Origin: Flavobacterium cupriresistens
GTDB lineage: Bacteria > Bacteroidota > Bacteroidia > Flavobacteriales > Flavobacteriaceae
Reading direction: 5' to 3'
Length of the DNA: 64,000 bases
NCBI RefSeq assembly: GCF_020911925.1
Contig: NZ_CP087134.1
Coordinates: forward strand, 930,001 to 994,000
Shown: positions 14,147 to 22,972 of the stretch, in pieces
Position numbering within the stretch: position 1 is the first letter of the stretch
Layout: each line of letters opens with the position of its first letter
Program-made: the position numbers and the translations under genes
The notes under the pieces: model-generated
Databases searched by the model: none
Told to the model about the DNA's origin: nothing
Seen by the model: the letters and a program-made list of their open reading frames with translations, nothing else

Positions 14147-15340
14147 TTATTGGTTTTGGTTGTATTTATTTGAAAGAAAAATCAACCCAAATAACGCTTT
14201 AATAAATGGTGTTTTGGGGCACTTTAAAATAACTTTAACATCTTGAATTAATGTCGTTTCTTCATCCAAAAATTTAAAAATAAAAACCGGATTTCCTTTT
14301 TTGAATAGGGCAGAAAAAATACGATTCCCTAGTTCATTATGGCGATAGAGAATATCCAGCAACAACAGATCGTAAAACCAAAATCGGCTCTTTTTATGAA
14401 AATCTTTCATTTTCAATGAAGTGGAAGGATTATCTAACAAAAATGCCACCAGTTCCGTTGATTTTTTATCCGAATTTTTAAATGTATATCCTGTACTCGC
14501 CTTTGTCCATCCGCCGGCAGTACCGATATTAAGCACTCGTTTGGTATTTCGCTCCCAAAAAGGAAAACAGGTCATTGGAATACTTCCCTGCTCCTTTTCC
14601 AGAATTTCATACGCAGTTGCGCCTAAATTCTTTAAATAGTTTTGAATCTCCTTTTCATACTCTTCTTCCGGAAGTAATTTCTCCGAAAATAGTGTATACT
14701 CAACCAAGGCCTCTGTTTTTGATATTGGCAAAACATACATAAAACGGGTATTCTCTTTTTGTTCTACCGAGAAATCCATAAAAGTAACTTGCTCCGGATT
14801 GAAGATCTCCGATTCGCTCTTGACCAGCCAACCTATAAAATGCTGTTGCAAAACGGCATATTGGGATTGATTTTCAGCAAAAGCTTTAGTGTAAATGCTA
14901 TTGAATAAGTGACTGCAAGTGTAGCTGTTATCTTCTGTACCAACATAAACATGGGTATCGAGTTCGTTGATATCGGTTACTTTATCTGTTAAAAAAGTAA
15001 TGTTTGATTCTTTTAAAAGAGCTTTCAAAACAAAGCTATAAAAATCCAAACCTCTAATCTGATTGTACTGATAAGGACGAAGGTCTAAATCGCGTTTAAA
15101 ATCCTGATTGGCAAACAAAGCAGCATCCCACTTTTTTGAAATAACCGAATCCCAAATCGTTTCCTCCTCCGACCAAAAACACCAGGTTCTGTCATTGGAT
15201 TGTTTTGAACTTGCATCTAACAACAAAATCGATTTGGTGCTGAATTTACCGGACAAAACCATTTTATAAACCGTCATTAAAGCCGAGAGACCTGTTCCGG
15301 TGAAAATGTAGTCGAAATGTTTGATTTGTGAGGAATGCAT
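14147..15340 (-). CDS. crtY: Lycopene beta-cyclase family protein
   Basis: CrtY converts linear lycopene to beta-carotene, the branch leading to zeaxanthin-type pigments in flavobacteria. The 397-residue protein starts at the ATG at 15340. The N-terminus has the dinucleotide-binding pattern DYIFTGTGLSALMTVY, then DASSKQSNDRTWCFW, the conserved Asp/Trp region of lycopene cyclases. TAGGWTKASTGYTF in the second half is another family landmark. The other carotenoid genes (crtB, crtI, crtZ) are not nearby, so the gene is separated from its pathway. It sits between a thioredoxin-like gene (18 bases upstream) and a TPR gene (3 bases downstream), with which it probably shares a message. Confidence 0.9.
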   Translation of the reverse strand: MHSSQIKHFDYIFTGTGLSALMTVYKMVLSGKFSTKSILLLDASSKQSNDRTWCFWSEEETIWDSVISKKWDAALFANQDFKRDLDLRPYQYNQIRGLDFYSFVLKALLKESNITFLTDKVTDINELDTHVYVGTEDNSYTCSHLFNSIYTKAFAENQSQYAVLQQHFIGWLVKSESEIFNPEQVTFMDFSVEQKENTRFMYVLPISKTEALVEYTLFSEKLLPEEEYEKEIQNYLKNLGATAYEILEKEQGSIPMTCFPFWERNTKRVLNIGTAGGWTKASTGYTFKNSDKKSTELVAFLLDNPSTSLKMKDFHKKSRFWFYDLLLLDILYRHNELGNRIFSALFKKGNPVFIFKFLDEETTLIQDVKVILKCPKTPFIKALFGLIFLSNKYNQNQ

Positions 15341-15358
15341 GTTCAAAAATAAGAAATT

Positions 15359-15823
15359 TTATTCTTTTGCTATTTCTAAAAACAGTTTAAAATCCGCCTC
15401 ATTTAAGTAGCTGTTATACTGGAGAATGATTTCATTATTCGCATTCAAAACACACAAAACCGGATACGCAATTTGTTTATTAATCGTTCCTAACTGAACG
15501 GCCAGCTCGTTTATGCCCACATTATTACCCGAGGGCCGGTATTTGAAAACCTGATTATTAAACGAAATGTCTCTTTTTTCTTCTGCATTCAAATCAATAA
15601 AATAAAAATCCGAATTCAACTTGTCTATGATTTCGTGATTGTTGAAGGTCATACTTTTCATTCGCTGACAAAACTGACACCAATCGGTATGGATAAAAAC
15701 AATCACATTTTTCTTTTGAATTTGCTGCAAGCTGTCAATCGCCTCAAACGGAGTGCTTTTGAGCTGGCAGAATCCTGTTGAAGTAATTCCAAGGAAGAAG
15801 ATAATAAGGGTCAGCTTTCCCAT
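15359..15823 (-). CDS. Periplasmic thioredoxin-fold protein
   Basis: The 154-residue protein has a signal peptide (MGKLTLIIFFLGITSTGFCQ) and a single thioredoxin-like domain with the active site HTDWCQFCQRM near residue 48 and the cis-Pro in IAYPVLCVL. The CQFC motif and the WC context fit the thioredoxin_7/SoxW-like group used for disulfide reduction or protein folding in the periplasm. It lies between a TonB-dependent receptor (189 bases upstream, same strand) and crtY. A link to the receptor is possible because that receptor has a CGVC motif in its plug domain. Confidence 0.85.
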   Translation of the reverse strand: MGKLTLIIFFLGITSTGFCQLKSTPFEAIDSLQQIQKKNVIVFIHTDWCQFCQRMKSMTFNNHEIIDKLNSDFYFIDLNAEEKRDISFNNQVFKYRPSGNNVGINELAVQLGTINKQIAYPVLCVLNANNEIILQYNSYLNEADFKLFLEIAKE

Positions 15824-16012: not shown

Positions 16013-18298
16013 CTACTTTAAATTATATCTCAAACCAAAGAAGCCTCTAATGGTTTGGTTTTGTCCATAAACATAAGTTGTGTCAAAAGTCAAACCGTAC
16101 GGATTATCTGAAGTAGTCACAATTTGCCCTTTTGGAACTACTTGTCCATTTAAGCCAACATTTGTTCCATCTGATGTTTGCACATTTTTATCGAAAGGAT
16201 CATTTGTTCTTGAAATCAAAAAGGGATTATTGCGTTTTGGTGTAAAATTCAACAGGTTTTTAATTCCCCCGTACACTTCAAAATTCTTCCATCCGAAATA
16301 CGTAAACTGAATGTTCTGAATACTATACCACGGCGATTTCGGGCTTCTCGGGTCTAAATCACTTAATAAAGGTAACTTCATCGGGCTGTACACATTCCCC
16401 GTATAATCCAACAATAAATTTAGTGAATCTATTTTATATGAAACACTCCAGGTTGCTGTGAATTTCTCGGTTAAAAAAGGTGTTGCCGAAACTCCATTTT
16501 CTACATTTTTATTATCCAGTAGCGTTGCACCAACAATAAACTTTAAACCTGATGGAAAATTAAGATCCACATTCGTACTGATTCCCTGACTTAACGCATA
16601 ACCATTGATGTTATCGTAAATGATTTTATTCGGATCGCTTTCGTAATCTGAAACAATTTTATTACTGAATCGAGTATAAAAAGCCGTTGTTTCGATCCCC
16701 ATAAAAGTTCCGTTTCCAAAATTGATTTTCTGTATGTAATTCAGATTCACATTAACGGATCGCTCCGGTTTTAAATCACTTTTGATCACCACATCTCTGG
16801 AGCCAGTAAGTGCTGCGTGGTCTTCGGTAAATAGATTCACTACCCGAAATCCGGTTCCCGCGTTCAATCTGAAAATAGTGTTTGGATTTTTCTTCCATCG
16901 ATAGGCTACTCTGGGAGTATAAATAGAACCGTGAATCGAATTGTAATCGTATCGCATTCCTAACAAAACCTGACTTTTTGGAGAAATCGTGATTTCATCC
17001 TGAACAAAAATTCCGGGTAACCAGGTACTTTCGGCTTCTTTAGTTGCGGTTGTATTGTCGTCGTAGTAAGAATAACGATTGGCAATTCCGGCCAGAAAAT
17101 CGTTTCTACCCATTTTTTTATCCCAGGTCAATTGCAAAAATCCAATTTTCTGATTGGCGATATAAGAGGTCGTTCCGTAGCGACTGTCCTGATAATGCAC
17201 ATTTCCGGAGAAAGACACCATCAATTTTTCTTCAAAAGGCAATTGATAACTTCCTATTAATTCTCCTCTTTTGGTGTAAATGCTTTCTCCATAAATTTCA
17301 TCCCCTCCGCGGAATTTCTTCTCCCAACGCACATCTCCACCCCAGCGATCTTCGTACATTCCTCTTGCAGCAATGGTAAACAAACGGTTATTGTCTCTCA
17401 AAAAACTCCACTTATTAAAAACTGAAATTCGTTCTGACAAGGTTACATCGGTAAAATTATCACGATCCTTATCGATAATCTGATTGTAATTGAAGTAATT
17501 AACCCCTAAAAGCGTTGTTGCTTTTTTTGACGGATTGAATTTCATTCCTAAATCGACATTGGTTTCTAAATAGGAAGTCGTAAAAACATCAGCAGAAAAC
17601 AACGGCGCGTTAGTCGGATTTTTGGTAATGATATTGATCAAGCCTCCCACAGCCTCACTTCCGTACAAGGAGGAAGCCGGGCCTTTTACGATTTCAATGC
17701 GTTCTACAAGCGAATTTGGAATTCCGGATAGTCCATAAACCGTTGATAGACTACTCACAATTGGCATCCCGTCAATTAAAATCAAAGTATATGGTCCTTC
17801 AAGACCATTAATATGAATGTCTCCCGTATTGCAGACCCCACAATTCAACTGAGGCCGAACACCGTTTATATTTTGAAGTGCCTCATAAATACTAGGCGTT
17901 GGGTTTTTCTTGAAGAAAACCGTAGAATAAACCTCAACCGGAACGGCACTTTCTAATCGCTTTACGGGTTTTAGAGTTCCGGAAACCACCACTTCATTGA
18001 GTTCGTTATCGTTGTCTTTTAATTCAAAATCAAGATTCAGTTTTTCATTCTCTGCAACCAAAATCCTTTGAGTTACGGGTTTAAATCCCATAGAGGTAAC
18101 CTGAATTTTATATTCTCCCTGAGGAATGCTCTCCAATTTATAATACCCTAAACTATCAGCTTCTGTTTTAAATGCAGTATTTAACAAGGTAATTTTAATC
18201 AATTGAGCGTCATTATCCCTGTTTACCTTTCCCGAAATAGTTTGCGAATGAACCATTTTCGCAGAAAATAAAAACAAGACTAAAAATAAATATTTCAT
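16013..18298 (-). CDS. TonB-dependent outer-membrane receptor, likely metal-related
   Basis: The 761-residue protein has a signal peptide, an N-terminal carboxypeptidase-regulatory-like beta domain (about 20-95), a plug domain (about 105-230) with LILIDGMPIVSSLSTVYG and RIEIVKGPASSLYGSEAVGG, and a C-terminal barrel ending in aromatic FFGLRYNLK. It imports a substrate through the outer membrane using TonB energy. The plug carries two cysteines in NCGVCNTGDIHING (Cys153, Cys156), unusual for this domain. A palindrome directly upstream (18311-18334) matches the one in front of the Nramp gene in half-sites and spacing, which points to control by the DtxR/MntR-type regulator and to Mn or Fe as the substrate. 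There is no SusD partner, so glycan import is unlikely. Confidence 0.92.
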   Translation of the reverse strand: MKYLFLVLFLFSAKMVHSQTISGKVNRDNDAQLIKITLLNTAFKTEADSLGYYKLESIPQGEYKIQVTSMGFKPVTQRILVAENEKLNLDFELKDNDNELNEVVVSGTLKPVKRLESAVPVEVYSTVFFKKNPTPSIYEALQNINGVRPQLNCGVCNTGDIHINGLEGPYTLILIDGMPIVSSLSTVYGLSGIPNSLVERIEIVKGPASSLYGSEAVGGLINIITKNPTNAPLFSADVFTTSYLETNVDLGMKFNPSKKATTLLGVNYFNYNQIIDKDRDNFTDVTLSERISVFNKWSFLRDNNRLFTIAARGMYEDRWGGDVRWEKKFRGGDEIYGESIYTKRGELIGSYQLPFEEKLMVSFSGNVHYQDSRYGTTSYIANQKIGFLQLTWDKKMGRNDFLAGIANRYSYYDDNTTATKEAESTWLPGIFVQDEITISPKSQVLLGMRYDYNSIHGSIYTPRVAYRWKKNPNTIFRLNAGTGFRVVNLFTEDHAALTGSRDVVIKSDLKPERSVNVNLNYIQKINFGNGTFMGIETTAFYTRFSNKIVSDYESDPNKIIYDNINGYALSQGISTNVDLNFPSGLKFIVGATLLDNKNVENGVSATPFLTEKFTATWSVSYKIDSLNLLLDYTGNVYSPMKLPLLSDLDPRSPKSPWYSIQNIQFTYFGWKNFEVYGGIKNLLNFTPKRNNPFLISRTNDPFDKNVQTSDGTNVGLNGQVVPKGQIVTTSDNPYGLTFDTTYVYGQNQTIRGFFGLRYNLK

Positions 18299-18310
18299 TC
18301 TATATAAATT

Positions 18311-18334
18311 AATTTTTAGGCAAATCTAAAAATT
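18311..18334. promoter_or_regulatory. Candidate DtxR/MntR operator at the TonB receptor promoter
   Basis: AATTTTTAG and CTAAAAATT form a perfect 9-bp inverted repeat around GCAAAT. The core TTTTAG-N6-CTAAAA is the same as in the operator of the Nramp gene (20283-20300). On the minus strand the palindrome contains TAGATTTG (18321-18328), a match to the flavobacterial -7 consensus, about 25 bases upstream of the receptor start. A bound repressor would therefore block the promoter. Confidence 0.7.
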
Positions 18335-18547
18335 AAATTTGACAAATAATGTTTACAAGGCTAAAAACTTAAAAATGAAATCATTTAGTGGGTTTGGATA
18401 AAAGAAAAAACACACAGAATCATAAGAAAAACCGAGCTAAACCTAACCAAAAACCTATTTAACTCTGTAACCTTTAAAAAACAAAACCCCTTTTAATTAA
18501 GTAAAGGAAATTATGATTCCATGTGTTATAAAAGAATAAGGAGATCC

Positions 18548-19459
18548 TTAAACGAAACTTTCATCGATAAGTTCTCTATTAATTGAAGCTCCTGCAAAAG
18601 AGCCTGAAGAAACTGCCATTGCAACAGATCGTGCCTGAATGGTACTATCCCCACTGGCATAAATTCCGGGGATATTGGTCCGCTGCAACAGATCTACTTT
18701 TAGCAAACCTTGCTCGGTCAATTCACACCCTAAAATTTCAGGTAAGGGACAGTGCTGTACAAAAGGAACTTTGGCATAAACCGCCTTTACTTTAATTTTT
18801 GATTTGTTTTTGAAAACTACCTCACGAATGCTTCCGTTTTCATGAAGAAATGAATCAATCTCCTCTTCAATGATCTTAATTCCATGTTTTTGAAGCAACT
18901 CCATTTGCGCTATACTAAAATTTGCTTTTCCGTTTGTTAGCAAACTAAGCTCTTTTGTCCAGTTTGAAATCATCTTCACATATTCAAAACCCAGATCACC
19001 GTTGGCAATAACCGCTGTTTTCTCACCTTTCACTTCATAACCATGACAATACGGGCAATGCAAAACGGAGATTCCCCAACAGGCACCAAAGCCATTAATA
19101 TTCGGAATCAAATCTTTTATTCCGGTTGCGAAAAGAATTTTCTTTGCTGTAAACGTTTTTCCTGATTCTGTTTTAAGTTCAAAACCATTTTCTATTCTAA
19201 TAGCGCTAACCGCTAATTCGTTATGAAATTGAACCGTATCATAAGAGCTAATCTCTTCTTTGGCTTTCTTCGAAATAGTTGCCGGCTTCTCTCCATCCTG
19301 TGTAATAAAATTATGCGAATAGGGTGTTTGTCTGTTACATGGCAGTCCACTATCTATCACCAAAACCTCACGCAAAGAACGCCCCAGACTCATCGCGGCA
19401 GCTAGTCCGCTGTAACTTCCTCCTACAACAATAACTTCAAAATGATTTTGCTGTGCCAT
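18548..19459 (-). CDS. Thioredoxin-reductase-like NAD(P)/FAD oxidoreductase
   Basis: The 303-residue protein begins VIVVGGSYSGLAAAMSLGR (FAD-binding GxGxxG type), has CPYCHGYEV near residue 135 as its CxxC redox site, and ends with YASGDSTIQARSVAMA, the second FAD motif. This is the thioredoxin-reductase architecture, but such short proteins next to metal genes often are not true TrxB and their partner is uncertain. It follows merC by five bases, so it should share the merC promoter with the Fur-type palindrome. No obvious heavy-metal binding domain is present. Confidence 0.88.
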   Translation of the reverse strand: MAQQNHFEVIVVGGSYSGLAAAMSLGRSLREVLVIDSGLPCNRQTPYSHNFITQDGEKPATISKKAKEEISSYDTVQFHNELAVSAIRIENGFELKTESGKTFTAKKILFATGIKDLIPNINGFGACWGISVLHCPYCHGYEVKGEKTAVIANGDLGFEYVKMISNWTKELSLLTNGKANFSIAQMELLQKHGIKIIEEEIDSFLHENGSIREVVFKNKSKIKVKAVYAKVPFVQHCPLPEILGCELTEQGLLKVDLLQRTNIPGIYASGDSTIQARSVAMAVSSGSFAGASINRELIDESFV

Positions 19460-19464
19460 AATTG

Positions 19465-19809
19465 TTATCTTTTATGTGATTTATAATTCAAAAAATGTCC
19501 CACAATCATCCCTATTCCTCCAAAAAAAATCCAATCAAGATGAATTTCCAAAAAAATATCGACCAAAACACTGATCCAAATCATGGCCATAGAAATAATA
19601 AAAATGCTGGAGACCAAAAGGTTCGATTTTTTAATTATTTTTAAAATCGCAAAAAGTCCAATTGAAGCAAAAACCAAATCGATAAAAGGATTGTGAGTTA
19701 ATCCTAATGGCAGAATGGTTAGCAAAGGAAAGAGCAAGCAATGCACCAAACAAATGGTAGCGCTCGAAATTCCTAAAATATCGTAAAGGGCCATGGTCGT
19801 TTTCTTCAT
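19465..19809 (-). CDS. MerC domain inner-membrane protein
   Basis: The 114-residue protein has four hydrophobic segments and the MerC-type first helix ATICLVHCLLFPLL with its Cys and His residues. MerC proteins were first described as mercuric-ion transporters, but in Bacteroidota they often stand beside Fur-family regulators, which suggests another metal such as zinc. It is divergent from the fur-family gene, with an 82-base gap holding a palindrome that overlaps the probable -33 element of its promoter. The next gene, a flavin oxidoreductase, is co-transcribed. Confidence 0.88.
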   Translation of the reverse strand: MKKTTMALYDILGISSATICLVHCLLFPLLTILPLGLTHNPFIDLVFASIGLFAILKIIKKSNLLVSSIFIISMAMIWISVLVDIFLEIHLDWIFFGGIGMIVGHFLNYKSHKR

Positions 19810-19830
19810 TTCTCGTACTTTTGCTTAATG

Positions 19831-19858
19831 CAAATATATAAAATTATTTCAATCGCAA
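19831..19858 (-). promoter_or_regulatory. merC promoter (-33/-7)
   Basis: On the minus strand TATATTTG (19831-19838) matches the flavobacterial -7 consensus TAnnTTTG. A TTG (19856-19858) lies 17 bases upstream as the -33 element. The TTG falls inside the palindrome at 19854-19868, so repressor binding would compete with RNA polymerase. Confidence 0.6.
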
Positions 19859-19868
19859 CATTGTTGCG
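19854..19868. promoter_or_regulatory. Fur-family operator between merC and the fur-like gene
   Basis: CGCAACA-T-TGTTGCG is a perfect 7-1-7 palindrome in the short divergent region. Its position and symmetry suit a dimeric Fur-superfamily regulator encoded 24 bases away, which would control both merC and itself. A near-identical copy is found at 11785-11797. Confidence 0.7.
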
Positions 19869-19891
19869 TTAATATATTTAATTGATTTAGA

Positions 19892-20281
19892 ATGAAAAAC
19901 ACTAGAAATACTACCGCAAAGACGGCCGTTACACAGATTCTCACCGAATCGAAAACGGCATTGTCACATACAGAAATTCACAAACTAACAGCAGATTTGT
20001 GTGATCGTGTTACTATTTACAGAATATTGGATCGTCTTGTAAATGACGATATCGTTCATAAAATTGTAGATCTTGACGGTACGGTAAAATATGCCAAATG
20101 CCATCATGCACATCCAGTACACATTCATAATCACGCTCATTTCAGCTGTGAAAATTGCCACGAAATAACCTGCCTTGAAAATGTAAAACCAAGTTACATT
20201 ATTCCGCACAACTATAAAGTAAATGATATTAACTTTACGTTATCAGGTTTGTGTCCCAATTGTTTAAATTCTAACATTTAA
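19892..20281 (+). CDS. Fur-family metal-dependent transcriptional regulator
   Basis: The 129-residue protein has a winged-helix N-terminus (TDLCDRVTIYRILDRL as the recognition region) and a C-terminal metal domain with His-rich KCHHAHPVHIHNHAHFSCENC and a later CPNC. The two CxxC pairs hold a structural zinc, and the His cluster is the sensing region. It is short for Fur and closest in shape to Zur-like members. It is divergent from merC across a palindrome that is its likely operator. The Nramp gene follows in the same direction after 74 bases but has its own promoter. Whether the sensed metal is zinc or iron cannot be settled here. Confidence 0.9.
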   Translation: MKNTRNTTAKTAVTQILTESKTALSHTEIHKLTADLCDRVTIYRILDRLVNDDIVHKIVDLDGTVKYAKCHHAHPVHIHNHAHFSCENCHEITCLENVKPSYIIPHNYKVNDINFTLSGLCPNCLNSNI

Positions 20282-20282
20282 C

Positions 20283-20300
20283 TTTTAGACTTGTCTAAAA
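20283..20300. promoter_or_regulatory. Candidate DtxR/MntR operator of the Nramp gene
   Basis: TTTTAGAC-TT-GTCTAAAA is a perfect 8-2-8 palindrome placed seven bases upstream of the -33 element of the Nramp promoter. It shares TTTTAG-N6-CTAAAA with the site in front of the TonB receptor. The regulator gene two positions downstream (22319-22972) is the obvious candidate to bind it. Confidence 0.75.
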
Positions 20301-20355: not shown

Positions 20356-22227
20356 ATGACCAAATCTTTAGAAGAAGTAAACCAATCGGTTCCCACCGAG
20401 AATAAAAAAACAGGATTCAGAAAAATATTAGCCTTCTTCGGTCCGGCATACTTAGTAAGTGTAGGTTACATGGACCCCGGAAACTGGGCTACCGATATTG
20501 CGGGAGGGAGTCAGTTTGGCTACACCCTGGTTTGGGTTTTGCTTATGAGTAATTTGATGGCTTTACTACTTCAAAGCCTAAGTGCCCGACTTGGAATTGT
20601 GACACAGCGCGATCTGGCGCAAGCTTCGAGAGAAACCTACTCTAAATACATCAATTACATTTTATACTTTCTGGCAGAAATTGCTATTGCAGCTTGTGAT
20701 CTGGCAGAAGTTCTCGGAATGGCGATCGGAATTAATCTGTTATTTGGCATTCCGCTTCTCGAAGCGGTTTTAATTACCGTTTTAGATACCTTTTTACTGC
20801 TTTTCCTGATCAATAAAGGAATTCGCAAGATGGAAGCCTTCATTATTGCTTTGGTTGCCATTATCGGCTTCTCTTTTATTTTTGAAATGATTTTTGCAGA
20901 ACCGGAAATGCATAAAGTGCTCGAAGGCCTCATTCCTTCTATACCAAATTCTGCTGCTTTGTATATCGCCATCGGAATTATTGGGGCAACTGTAATGCCT
21001 CACAATTTATACCTACACTCCTCTTTGGTGCAAACCAGAAAATTTGACCGAACACCGGCAGGTATCAAACAAGCTTTAAAATACAATTTCATCGATTCGA
21101 CCATTGCTTTAAATCTGGCCTTTTTTGTAAATGCAGCCATTTTGATTCTTGCGGCGGCAACTTTTCATAAAAACGGTATGTTTGAAGTAGCCGAAATTCA
21201 GGATGCACATCAATTTCTGGAACCGCTGTTGGGAACCAAGTGGGCTCCCATTTTATTTGCTGTTGCATTGATTGCAGCAGGACAAAGTTCTACGGTTACC
21301 GGAACGCTGGCCGGACAGATTGTAATGGAAGGCTATCTCCATTTGCGTATTCAGCCTTGGGTTCGTCGTATCCTTACGCGTTTAATTGCCATTATTCCTG
21401 CCGTTATCGTTATTTTAATTTATGGTGAAAGCGTCACCGGAAAACTATTGATTCTAAGTCAGGTCATTTTAAGTTTGCAATTGGGTTTTGCGATTATCCC
21501 TCTGATTCATTTTGTGAGTGATAAATCAAAAATGAACGGTTTTCATATTTCCAGAACGACACAGGTAGTTTCGTGGATTATTGCGGCGATTATAGTTTCA
21601 TTGAATGCAAAATTAGTATACGATGAAATTACTTCCTGGCTTGAAAACTCCAGCAATCCAATAGTGCTATGGCTTACCGTTGTTCCATTGGCTTTCGCAT
21701 TCCTTGCTTTACTGCTTTATATCGTGGTTGGACCTTTTATCGCTAAGGTAAAAAACAAGATTGTGAACCACTCCCCTCATCATTTAAAATTACAGTTTTC
21801 GCCAAAAGAAAACCAAACGATTAAGAACATAGCCATTTCGGTCGATTTCTCAAATGCTGACGAGCCCGCATTAAACAAAGCCTTTGAATTGGGGGGCATT
21901 GACACGCAATATACCTTAATTCATATTGTAGAAACGGTTGGCGCTTTAATGTACGGCGTCGAAATACAAGATCATGAAACTACTATTGATGAAAAATTAT
22001 TATTGGAATACAAAGAAATGCTTTCCAAAAAAGGATTTAAAATCAAAACCGAGCTTGGATTTGGAAAACCCAATACGATTATCGCAAAAATTATAAATGA
22101 AGGTGATTTTGATATTTTGGTAATGGGAACCCATGGACATACGGGTCTAAAGGATCTTCTTTTTGGCACAACAGTAGACAAACTGCGTCATAAAATTTCA
22201 ATACCTTTGTTGATTGTTAAAAAATAG
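20356..22227 (+). CDS. mntH: Nramp divalent-metal transporter fused to a UspA domain
   Basis: The start is the ATG at 20356; a TTG two codons upstream is less likely. The first ~460 residues are an Nramp proton-coupled Mn(II)/Fe(II) importer with the metal-site motif MDPGNWATD (near residue 38) and MPHNLYLHSSLVQTR in TM6, plus ten or eleven membrane segments. From about residue 480 a universal-stress-protein domain follows, ending MGTHGHTGLKDLLFG and IPLLIVKK, with the ATP-loop pattern GxxGxxxxxxG. Total length is 623, against about 410-450 for plain MntH. The UspA part may sense nucleotides and modulate transport. An operator-like palindrome and promoter lie upstream, and a DtxR-family gene lies downstream. 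Confidence 0.93.
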   Translation: MTKSLEEVNQSVPTENKKTGFRKILAFFGPAYLVSVGYMDPGNWATDIAGGSQFGYTLVWVLLMSNLMALLLQSLSARLGIVTQRDLAQASRETYSKYINYILYFLAEIAIAACDLAEVLGMAIGINLLFGIPLLEAVLITVLDTFLLLFLINKGIRKMEAFIIALVAIIGFSFIFEMIFAEPEMHKVLEGLIPSIPNSAALYIAIGIIGATVMPHNLYLHSSLVQTRKFDRTPAGIKQALKYNFIDSTIALNLAFFVNAAILILAAATFHKNGMFEVAEIQDAHQFLEPLLGTKWAPILFAVALIAAGQSSTVTGTLAGQIVMEGYLHLRIQPWVRRILTRLIAIIPAVIVILIYGESVTGKLLILSQVILSLQLGFAIIPLIHFVSDKSKMNGFHISRTTQVVSWIIAAIIVSLNAKLVYDEITSWLENSSNPIVLWLTVVPLAFAFLALLLYIVVGPFIAKVKNKIVNHSPHHLKLQFSPKENQTIKNIAISVDFSNADEPALNKAFELGGIDTQYTLIHIVETVGALMYGVEIQDHETTIDEKLLLEYKEMLSKKGFKIKTELGFGKPNTIIAKIINEGDFDILVMGTHGHTGLKDLLFGTTVDKLRHKISIPLLIVKK

Positions 22228-22318: not shown

Positions 22319-22972
22319 ATGACTTTCTCAGAAGAAAACTACTTAAAAGCGATATACCACCTTACTGCTTCTTTAGAAACAGAAGTGAGCACAAATGCTA
22401 TTGCCGAAATGATGGAGACCAAAGCTTCATCGGTTACAGATATGCTTAAAAAGCTGTCCGAAAAGGATTTAGTAAATTATAAAAAATACCAAGGCGTTTC
22501 TTTGACGGAAAACGGCAAACTGGCTGCCAAGATGATCGTTAGAAAACATCGTTTGTGGGAAGTATTTCTAGTTGAAAAATTAAATTTCAGTTGGGATGAA
22601 GTCCACGATATTGCAGAACAGTTAGAACATATTAAATCCGAGCAACTGATCAACCGTCTGGATGATTTTCTTGGAAACCCAACAGAAGACCCGCACGGTG
22701 ATCCTATTCCGGATGCTAACGGTCGTATCGTTAAAATTGAGAAACATCTGCTGTCAGAGTTAAACGAAGGTCAAATTGGCGTTTGTGTCGGCGTAAAAGA
22801 CACCTCTTCGGAGTTTTTAAAATATCTGGACAAACAGGAAATTGCTTTGGGCTCTAAAATTGAACTCTTGTCGAAAGAGTCTTTTGATTTATCAGTAAAA
22901 ATAAAGGTCGACGGTAGAGAATTATCGATTTCTAATAAAATTGCTTCTAATTTGTTTGTGAAACTGGTTTAG
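22319..22972 (+). CDS. DtxR/MntR-family metal-dependent repressor
   Basis: The 217-residue protein has an N-terminal winged helix (EENYLKAIYHL, then TKASSVTDMLKKLSEKDLV as the recognition part), a dimerisation domain with the metal-site residues of HRLWEVFLVEKL and HDIAEQLEHI, then DPHGDPIPD, and a C-terminal FeoA/SH3-like domain (about 140-217). The gene is 91 bases behind the Nramp gene. This placement, and a perfect palindrome at the Nramp promoter, argue that it represses Mn or Fe uptake when the metal is plentiful. The MntR versus IdeR choice is inferred from the neighbour only. Confidence 0.92.
   Translation: MTFSEENYLKAIYHLTASLETEVSTNAIAEMMETKASSVTDMLKKLSEKDLVNYKKYQGVSLTENGKLAAKMIVRKHRLWEVFLVEKLNFSWDEVHDIAEQLEHIKSEQLINRLDDFLGNPTEDPHGDPIPDANGRIVKIEKHLLSELNEGQIGVCVGVKDTSSEFLKYLDKQEIALGSKIELLSKESFDLSVKIKVDGRELSISNKIASNLFVKLV

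Follow-up and report, generated by a model that had tools for sequence, protein, structure and literature searches.

MnoT of Bradyrhizobium is reportedly a TonB-dependent transporter of manganese in the outer membrane, a role like the one proposed below for a flavobacterial receptor, the two being compared by description and not by sequence. MnoT-TseM of Burkholderia thailandensis is cited as an outer-membrane Mn system with a type VI-secreted Mn-binding protein in the accessible text of a recent paper (PMC13217887, May 2026), whose subject is the TBDR-pTFP module of Stenotrophomonas maltophilia Sm18. This MntR-regulated module, which adjoins mntR and mntH, comprises a TonB receptor with a CQNC motif in the plug; MntR boxes were predicted for it, its promoter fusions rise in an mntR deletion and, according to its authors, its precise function remains to be determined. 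Synteny of the module was reported for Lysobacterales, Sphingomonadales and Opitutales, and a search of the accessible text for words in "Bacteroid-" gave no match. Here we describe a comparable locus in Flavobacterium cupriresistens (Flavobacteriaceae, Bacteroidota), in a stretch of 64,000 nucleotides (contig NZ_CP087134.1, positions 930,001 to 994,000 of the forward strand; hereafter the window), in which a TonB-dependent receptor and an Nramp-type importer are each preceded by the same palindrome and a DtxR/MntR-type regulator adjoins the importer. The locus as a whole is probably best explained as a system for the uptake of Mn(II), perhaps also Fe(II), across both membranes under repression by this regulator. 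Membership of the receptor in the regulon is very probable, and manganese is its likely cargo.

The receptor gene (761 residues) is located at 16013-18298 on the reverse strand. The Nramp protein (MntH), fused to a universal-stress (Usp) domain, is encoded at 20356-22227 (forward strand; PF01566, PF00582), and the regulator of 217 residues, the proposed operator-binding protein, at 22319-22972 (forward strand). The proposed receptor operator (18311-18334, given without strand) reads AATTTTTAG-GCAAAT-CTAAAAATT, a perfect 9-6-9 inverted repeat, and the proposed mntH operator (20283-20300, likewise without strand) reads TTTTAGAC-TT-GTCTAAAA, a perfect 8-2-8 repeat whose first base is 73 bp before the mntH ATG; direct reading confirmed the positions and the symmetry that an earlier note on this DNA had claimed for both. 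The scoring motif TTTTAG-N6-CTAAAA was derived from the window, where these two sites are its only exact matches; at most one mismatch, the threshold used below unless another is given, yields six matches in the window versus 1.21 (standard deviation 1.17) in shuffles. The complete genome (5.74 Mb) contains 184 such matches, 11 of them exact, and 229 matches to the reversed pattern, so that the bare motif proves little and the case rests on comparison.

Among 61 Flavobacterium genomes (the window's own and 60 others) a clear orthologue of the receptor was found in 41, an Nramp match in 40 and a regulator match in 55. The site is present at the receptor start in 40 of the 41 orthologues, 39 of them in a recount and one (G040), whose front was unreadable in the recount, from the earlier reading of its locus; in G018 it has two mismatches. 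Nramp fronts were fetched for 30 of the 40 genomes with Nramp (L078 has no upstream DNA on its contig), and 27 of them carry the site, in 26 cases 70-78 bp before the ATG. The three fronts lacking it belong to G035, with no upstream DNA on the contig, and to G014 and G026, in which the regulator was not found either and a lycopene cyclase gene abuts Nramp; as these two genomes are 88-90% complete, they amount to only two cases in which regulator and site are both absent. A family set of 199 Flavobacteriaceae genomes and a class set of 295 genomes were searched with profiles, and in 29 of the 30 receptor loci fetched from the family (the window's own included) the site occurs with no more than two mismatches. 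In a further set of 80 named loci (Flavobacterium, Pedobacter, Allomuricauda, Zobellia, Chryseobacterium, a Saprospiraceae bin and others) it precedes 58 of 72 readable receptor fronts. The earlier note had proposed a motif search in related Flavobacterium and had made its prediction depend on the palindrome being kept upstream of receptor orthologues; it is kept there in the genus and family, less regularly in the class, and before Nramp as well.

A different view would take the palindrome for no more than part of a promoter, or for a repeat arisen by chance in AT-rich DNA. It could draw on the genome-wide counts, which are lower for the motif than for its reversed pattern, and on a TAnnTTTG-like box that is present in 119 of 171 good sites. 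The site at 18311, read on the receptor strand, does contain TAGATTTG, which the earlier note took as a -7 box; a TTTG further upstream at the usual spacing was not seen by eye, and this leaves the promoter reading weaker than the operator reading. A count of de-duplicated receptors, limited to those in which CxxC was recognisable and the open frame had 150 bp or more in front of it, gave the site in 161 of 204 (134 of 172 of the window type, 27 of 32 of a second type described below). Other genes of the named loci had it in 4 of 380 fronts. In the receptor count L034 and L143 were scored on a distant match, and the recount found a site at the start of L034. The site precedes only one of 16 paralogous receptors, hand-picked from the search listing of the 61 Flavobacterium genomes. 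Moreover, both arms are conserved, including the arm outside the box, and many Nramp sites have other centres. The promoter-only or chance reading was rejected on the control fronts and the paralogues, and we consider it extremely improbable.

The pattern of conservation also suggests an operator. In an alignment of sites selected by the motif, both arms and the centre stand out in information content against a low level on either side, and a weaker maximum occurs about 16 bp upstream. Ten loci, including three of Pedobacter, one of Kaistella and one of Epilithonimonas, have both arms jointly changed to GTTAG-N6-CTAAC, a variant noticed after the scoring motif had been derived; such a joint change is expected for a symmetric binding protein. 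The three checked receptors that are unlinked from the regulator (G055, G033 and G212; loci L092, L093 and L235) keep the site, which is thus not a by-product of shared intergenic DNA. Judged from these comparisons, the regulatory link between the receptor and the metal importer appears real and strongly conserved in Flavobacteriaceae.

The regulator has PF01325 and PF02742 domains above cut-off, as in DtxR/MntR proteins, and a FeoA-type C-terminal domain (PF04023). The earlier note had it as the only DtxR-family gene of the window, adjoining Nramp, and a search of the complete genome at E <= 1e-10 gave no other match. Its profile is matched in 177 of the 199 Flavobacteriaceae genomes and that of the receptor in 65; in 48 of the 65 family rows the two genes are, by their coordinates, divergent and adjacent, counting listed regulator rows only, and 26 of the 30 fetched family loci show the same back-to-back arrangement. 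The fetched stretch includes the regulator in 70 of the 80 named loci, directly back to back with the receptor in 39. In the class, the receptor was found in 104 and the regulator in 235 of 295 genomes. Four small-genome Flavobacteriaceae (loci L225, L226, L227 and L228; G112, G125, G159 and G237) have the receptor divergent from a regulator of 136-166 residues; no FeoA domain was found in that of L225, the one checked against Pfam, and no canonical site was seen at the four loci.

Directly upstream of mntH, at 19892-20281 on the forward strand, a small FUR-family protein of 129 residues is encoded (weak PF01475, 21.7 bits against a cut-off of 23.1), which is absent from the earlier note. Since its gene sits between both sites of the window, this protein might be the one that binds the palindrome. 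Its relatives are unevenly present: 14 of the 30 Nramp loci have one, as do 23 of the 80 named loci, whereas the site is in 27 of 30 Nramp and 58 of 72 receptor fronts, and the recurring linkage partner of the receptor is a DtxR-type regulator, not a FUR-type gene. The FUR-family protein was rejected as the binder on account of this uneven presence, and the role is very unlikely to be its own.

The importer varies between loci. The window's Nramp-Usp protein, scored against Pfam and NCBIfam on the frame from 20350, exceeds the cut-off of the NCBIfam MntH subfamily (600.9 bits, cut-off 430) and contains DPGN and MPHN, which we take to be meaningful motifs. In the 70 named loci with a regulator, an Nramp gene follows it on the same strand within 700 bp in 33 and a ZIP gene in 27, the ZIP identity having been assigned by Pfam in three examples, and none of the 80 fetched named stretches contains both. 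G077, G204 and G156 (L232, L233 and L234) combine the receptor, a DtxR-type gene and the genes of an ABC importer in a single row; ZnuA, ABC and ABC-3 domains were confirmed for the row of G077, the permeases of which also match FecCD, much more weakly. The DtxR-type gene of these three rows is a second regulator, about 34% identical. In G064 a perfect site is followed in succession by the regulator, a ZIP gene and a more distant receptor.

These partners bear on the metal. The co-regulation could be real and the receptor could yet import an iron source, free or chelated, under a regulator that senses both metals in the manner of DR2539 and TroR. Responses to both Mn and Fe are described for TroR of Treponema denticola (PMC2628430) and for DR2539 of Deinococcus (PMC3327659), whose residue at the place of MntR Glu11 is Lys, and the Stenotrophomonas receptor locus is strongly induced when both metals are short (PMC13217887), according to the accessible texts. 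The NCBIfam models that match the window receptor are for receptors of siderophores, haem or B12, each scoring well short of its cut-off. Against iron, the linked importers among the annotated neighbours are Nramp, ZIP or ABC with ZnuA/ABC-3 as the best domains. We regard iron as the unlikely alternative to manganese; the Mn-or-Fe wording of the earlier note was fair, because DR2539 responds to both. The best relatives of the window regulator in the PDB are 5zr4, SloR and ScaR. Its E100 aligns with the Glu of ScaR and SloR, is invariant in 15 of 15 aligned rows and presumably represents the MntR-type Glu at the position of DtxR Cys102. NCBIfam MntR equivalog models remain below cut-off, the best being NF047407 (158 bits, cut-off 350).

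The receptor carries a CarboxypepD-like N-terminal domain, a plug and a beta-barrel (PF13715, PF07715, PF00593), as is typical of TonB-dependent receptors. Its plug contains a CGVC motif, and Cys153 and Cys156 are invariant in an alignment of 15 receptors. This CxxC motif is specific among the receptors compared, as the Cys pair was found in none of the 15 alignable paralogues (from 14 Flavobacterium genomes). The AlphaFold2 model has a mean predicted local distance difference test score of 75, with the Cys loop of the plug at low confidence (below 50); the nearest PDB folds of the model are CirA and BtuB, and a sequence search of the PDB gave only general receptor relatives. NCBIfam models with U in their motif names match the plug weakly (FCYXU for the window receptor; FCYXU, CU and PUIUD for the second type). 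We take this U to stand for selenocysteine, which would fit a redox role but amounts to a lead rather than a test.

The reverse strand also carries, downstream of the receptor (15359-15823), a gene for a thioredoxin-fold protein of 154 residues with a CQFC motif (PF13098 and PF13899 above cut-off), also absent from the earlier note. A relative is found within 0.9 kb behind the receptor in 46 of the 80 named loci, and CxxC is kept in all seven aligned relatives. A plasmid-collection search with this protein gave one match, in Hymenobacter, with no listed receptor nearby.

A different TonB receptor with the same site occurs in G024 and G059 (L099 and L101). The two proteins are 27% identical to the window receptor and 38% to each other, their plugs contain CQNC or CQTC, and a lycopene cyclase gene follows as in the window. 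Of the 199 Flavobacteriaceae genomes, 33 have this second family. Its receptor and the regulator stand back to back in 24 of 34 rows, and the site precedes 25 of 30 fetched receptors, some of which have their regulator elsewhere. The two families, from 65 and 33 genomes, co-occur in one genome of the 199 (G202; hypergeometric P about 1e-5). Two non-orthologous receptor families are thus found at the same locus, behind the same proposed operator. A plasmid-collection search with the second type returned Bacteroidota records.

Compared with the Sm18 module, the window has the same anatomy: a TonB receptor with CxxC in the plug, then a CxxC thioredoxin-fold protein, periplasmic in Sm18, which at 15359-15823 has its counterpart in the window, near the regulator and mntH (PMC13217887, accessible text). 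The predicted MntR box of Sm18 is described as a 25-bp inverted palindrome. Unlike in Sm18, the partner in Flavobacteriaceae can also be a ZIP or ABC importer. The plug motif differs as well, CQNC in Sm18 and CGVC in the window, and CQNC-type receptors do occur at the same locus in Flavobacteriaceae, in the second family. Having CGVC, the window receptor cannot be placed in the CQNC clade; its likeness to Sm18 is one of anatomy and of proposed working, no sequence of that clade having been compared. DR2539 with mntH, and TroR, resemble the window in having a DtxR-family repressor with a C-terminal domain and an inverted repeat before a metal importer gene, and differ from it in that no outer-membrane receptor is mentioned in the accessible texts (PMC3327659, PMC2628430). 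In Bizionia, mutation of a different regulator, MliR, lowers the levels of TonB receptors, a cytochrome c, a Rieske protein and a Mn/Zn ABC importer, with no mention of DtxR or MntR in the accessible part of the study (PMC9478572). No report of an MntR-controlled or Mn receptor in Bacteroidota was found in the open-licence PMC literature, including the accessible text of PMC9478572, PMC9936198 and PMC12574912. The window receptor is a likely Mn receptor, apparently a variant of the very recently described Stenotrophomonas-type module.

In the proposed mechanism, the regulator loaded with Mn(II), possibly also with Fe(II), would bind TTTTTAG-N6-CTAAAAA as a symmetric oligomer and, in metal-replete cells, block the promoters of both the receptor and Nramp; at the receptor the palindrome overlaps the TAnnTTTG-like box. 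In metal-poor cells both proteins would be made. The TonB-driven receptor would then admit Mn(II), or a complex of Mn, through the outer membrane, and the Nramp protein would carry the metal across the inner one, while the thioredoxin-fold protein probably acts on the Cys pair of the plug. A broader model, offered tentatively and with somewhat more doubt than trust, is a redox-gated route for Mn through the outer membrane that is widespread in Bacteroidota: two non-orthologous families of receptors with a CxxC plug would share one MntR-controlled locus, the first often with its own periplasmic thioredoxin-fold partner, the plug disulfide would be reduced to release the metal, and the importer (Nramp, ZIP or ABC) would be interchangeable.

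Several points weigh against manganese uptake under this regulator. The receptors counted above, the 161 of 204 among them, are related and were picked as best matches, so that the counts describe conservation and are not independent trials. Outside the family the arrangement is less regular: in the class, the site was found in 12 of 26 readable loci and the regulator within the 1.5 kb flank in 15 of 26. For the CQNC-type receptors L297, L298 and L299 (plasmid-collection records of Parabacteroides, Bacteroides and Persicobacter) no regulator is listed within about 6 kb, in a gene table that is incomplete. The canonical site was not found at the small-genome receptors L222, L223, L225, L227 and L228, nor before the ABC gene rows of G077, G204 and G156. 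Of the 61 Flavobacterium genomes, 20 have no clear receptor orthologue, two of which, G024 and G059, have the second family; Mn uptake in general can therefore do without this receptor. Mn(II) is not commonly bound by cysteine, and the CxxC of the plug thus argues for redox gating or another metal. The window regulator has Lys at the position taken as MntR Glu11, as in DR2539, which keeps an Fe(II) response possible, and the reading is of Mn with a possible Fe response. No binding, expression or transport data for Bacteroidota were seen in the literature searched.

The other nine exact matches in the window genome comprise six inside open reading frames, one overlapping the 3' end of a frame and two between frames. 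The latter (L010 and L011; G000:C1:3637172 and 5464691) precede the next frame by about 170 and 100 bp. A tighter pattern, TTTAG-NN-TTG-N-CTAAA, matches this genome four times, at the two window sites and twice within open reading frames, and the idea of a wider regulon there was rejected on the result for this pattern. Of its matches in other places and genomes, 20 were read, in 20 stretches: two lie between frames and 18 in called frames, among them L304 at the very start of its frame. The sites of L304 and L317 front genes of di-haem oxidoreductase type, which is a side lead. In L321 (position 9985, G060) and L322 (position 1402, G009) the palindrome lies immediately before a gene row or at its start, possibly an additional target in some Flavobacterium. 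The row of L321 encodes a di-haem oxidoreductase (PF06537), a Rieske protein (PF00355) and a third protein with no Pfam match, and that of L322 resembles it by eye, the domains having been checked in L321.

Among the neighbouring genes of the window, a MerC-like and a thioredoxin-reductase-like gene (18548-19809) lie between the two operators, divergent from the FUR-family gene. In many of the loci read, the lycopene cyclase gene (14147-15346) lies close to the receptor or the regulator, and it does so also beside second-type receptors (L099, L101) and where the receptor is missing (L218, L219).

The passage of manganese across the outer membrane has rarely been assigned to a specific protein. 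The locus described here offers a testable candidate for a Mn receptor, together with its switch, in a large phylum of environmental and host-associated bacteria, and shows that Bacteroidota possess counterparts of the Stenotrophomonas module. The role of the Cys pair in the plug and of its thioredoxin-like neighbour becomes a concrete question, and the receptors of the window family, which are now labelled just as TonB-dependent receptors, could gain a working name.

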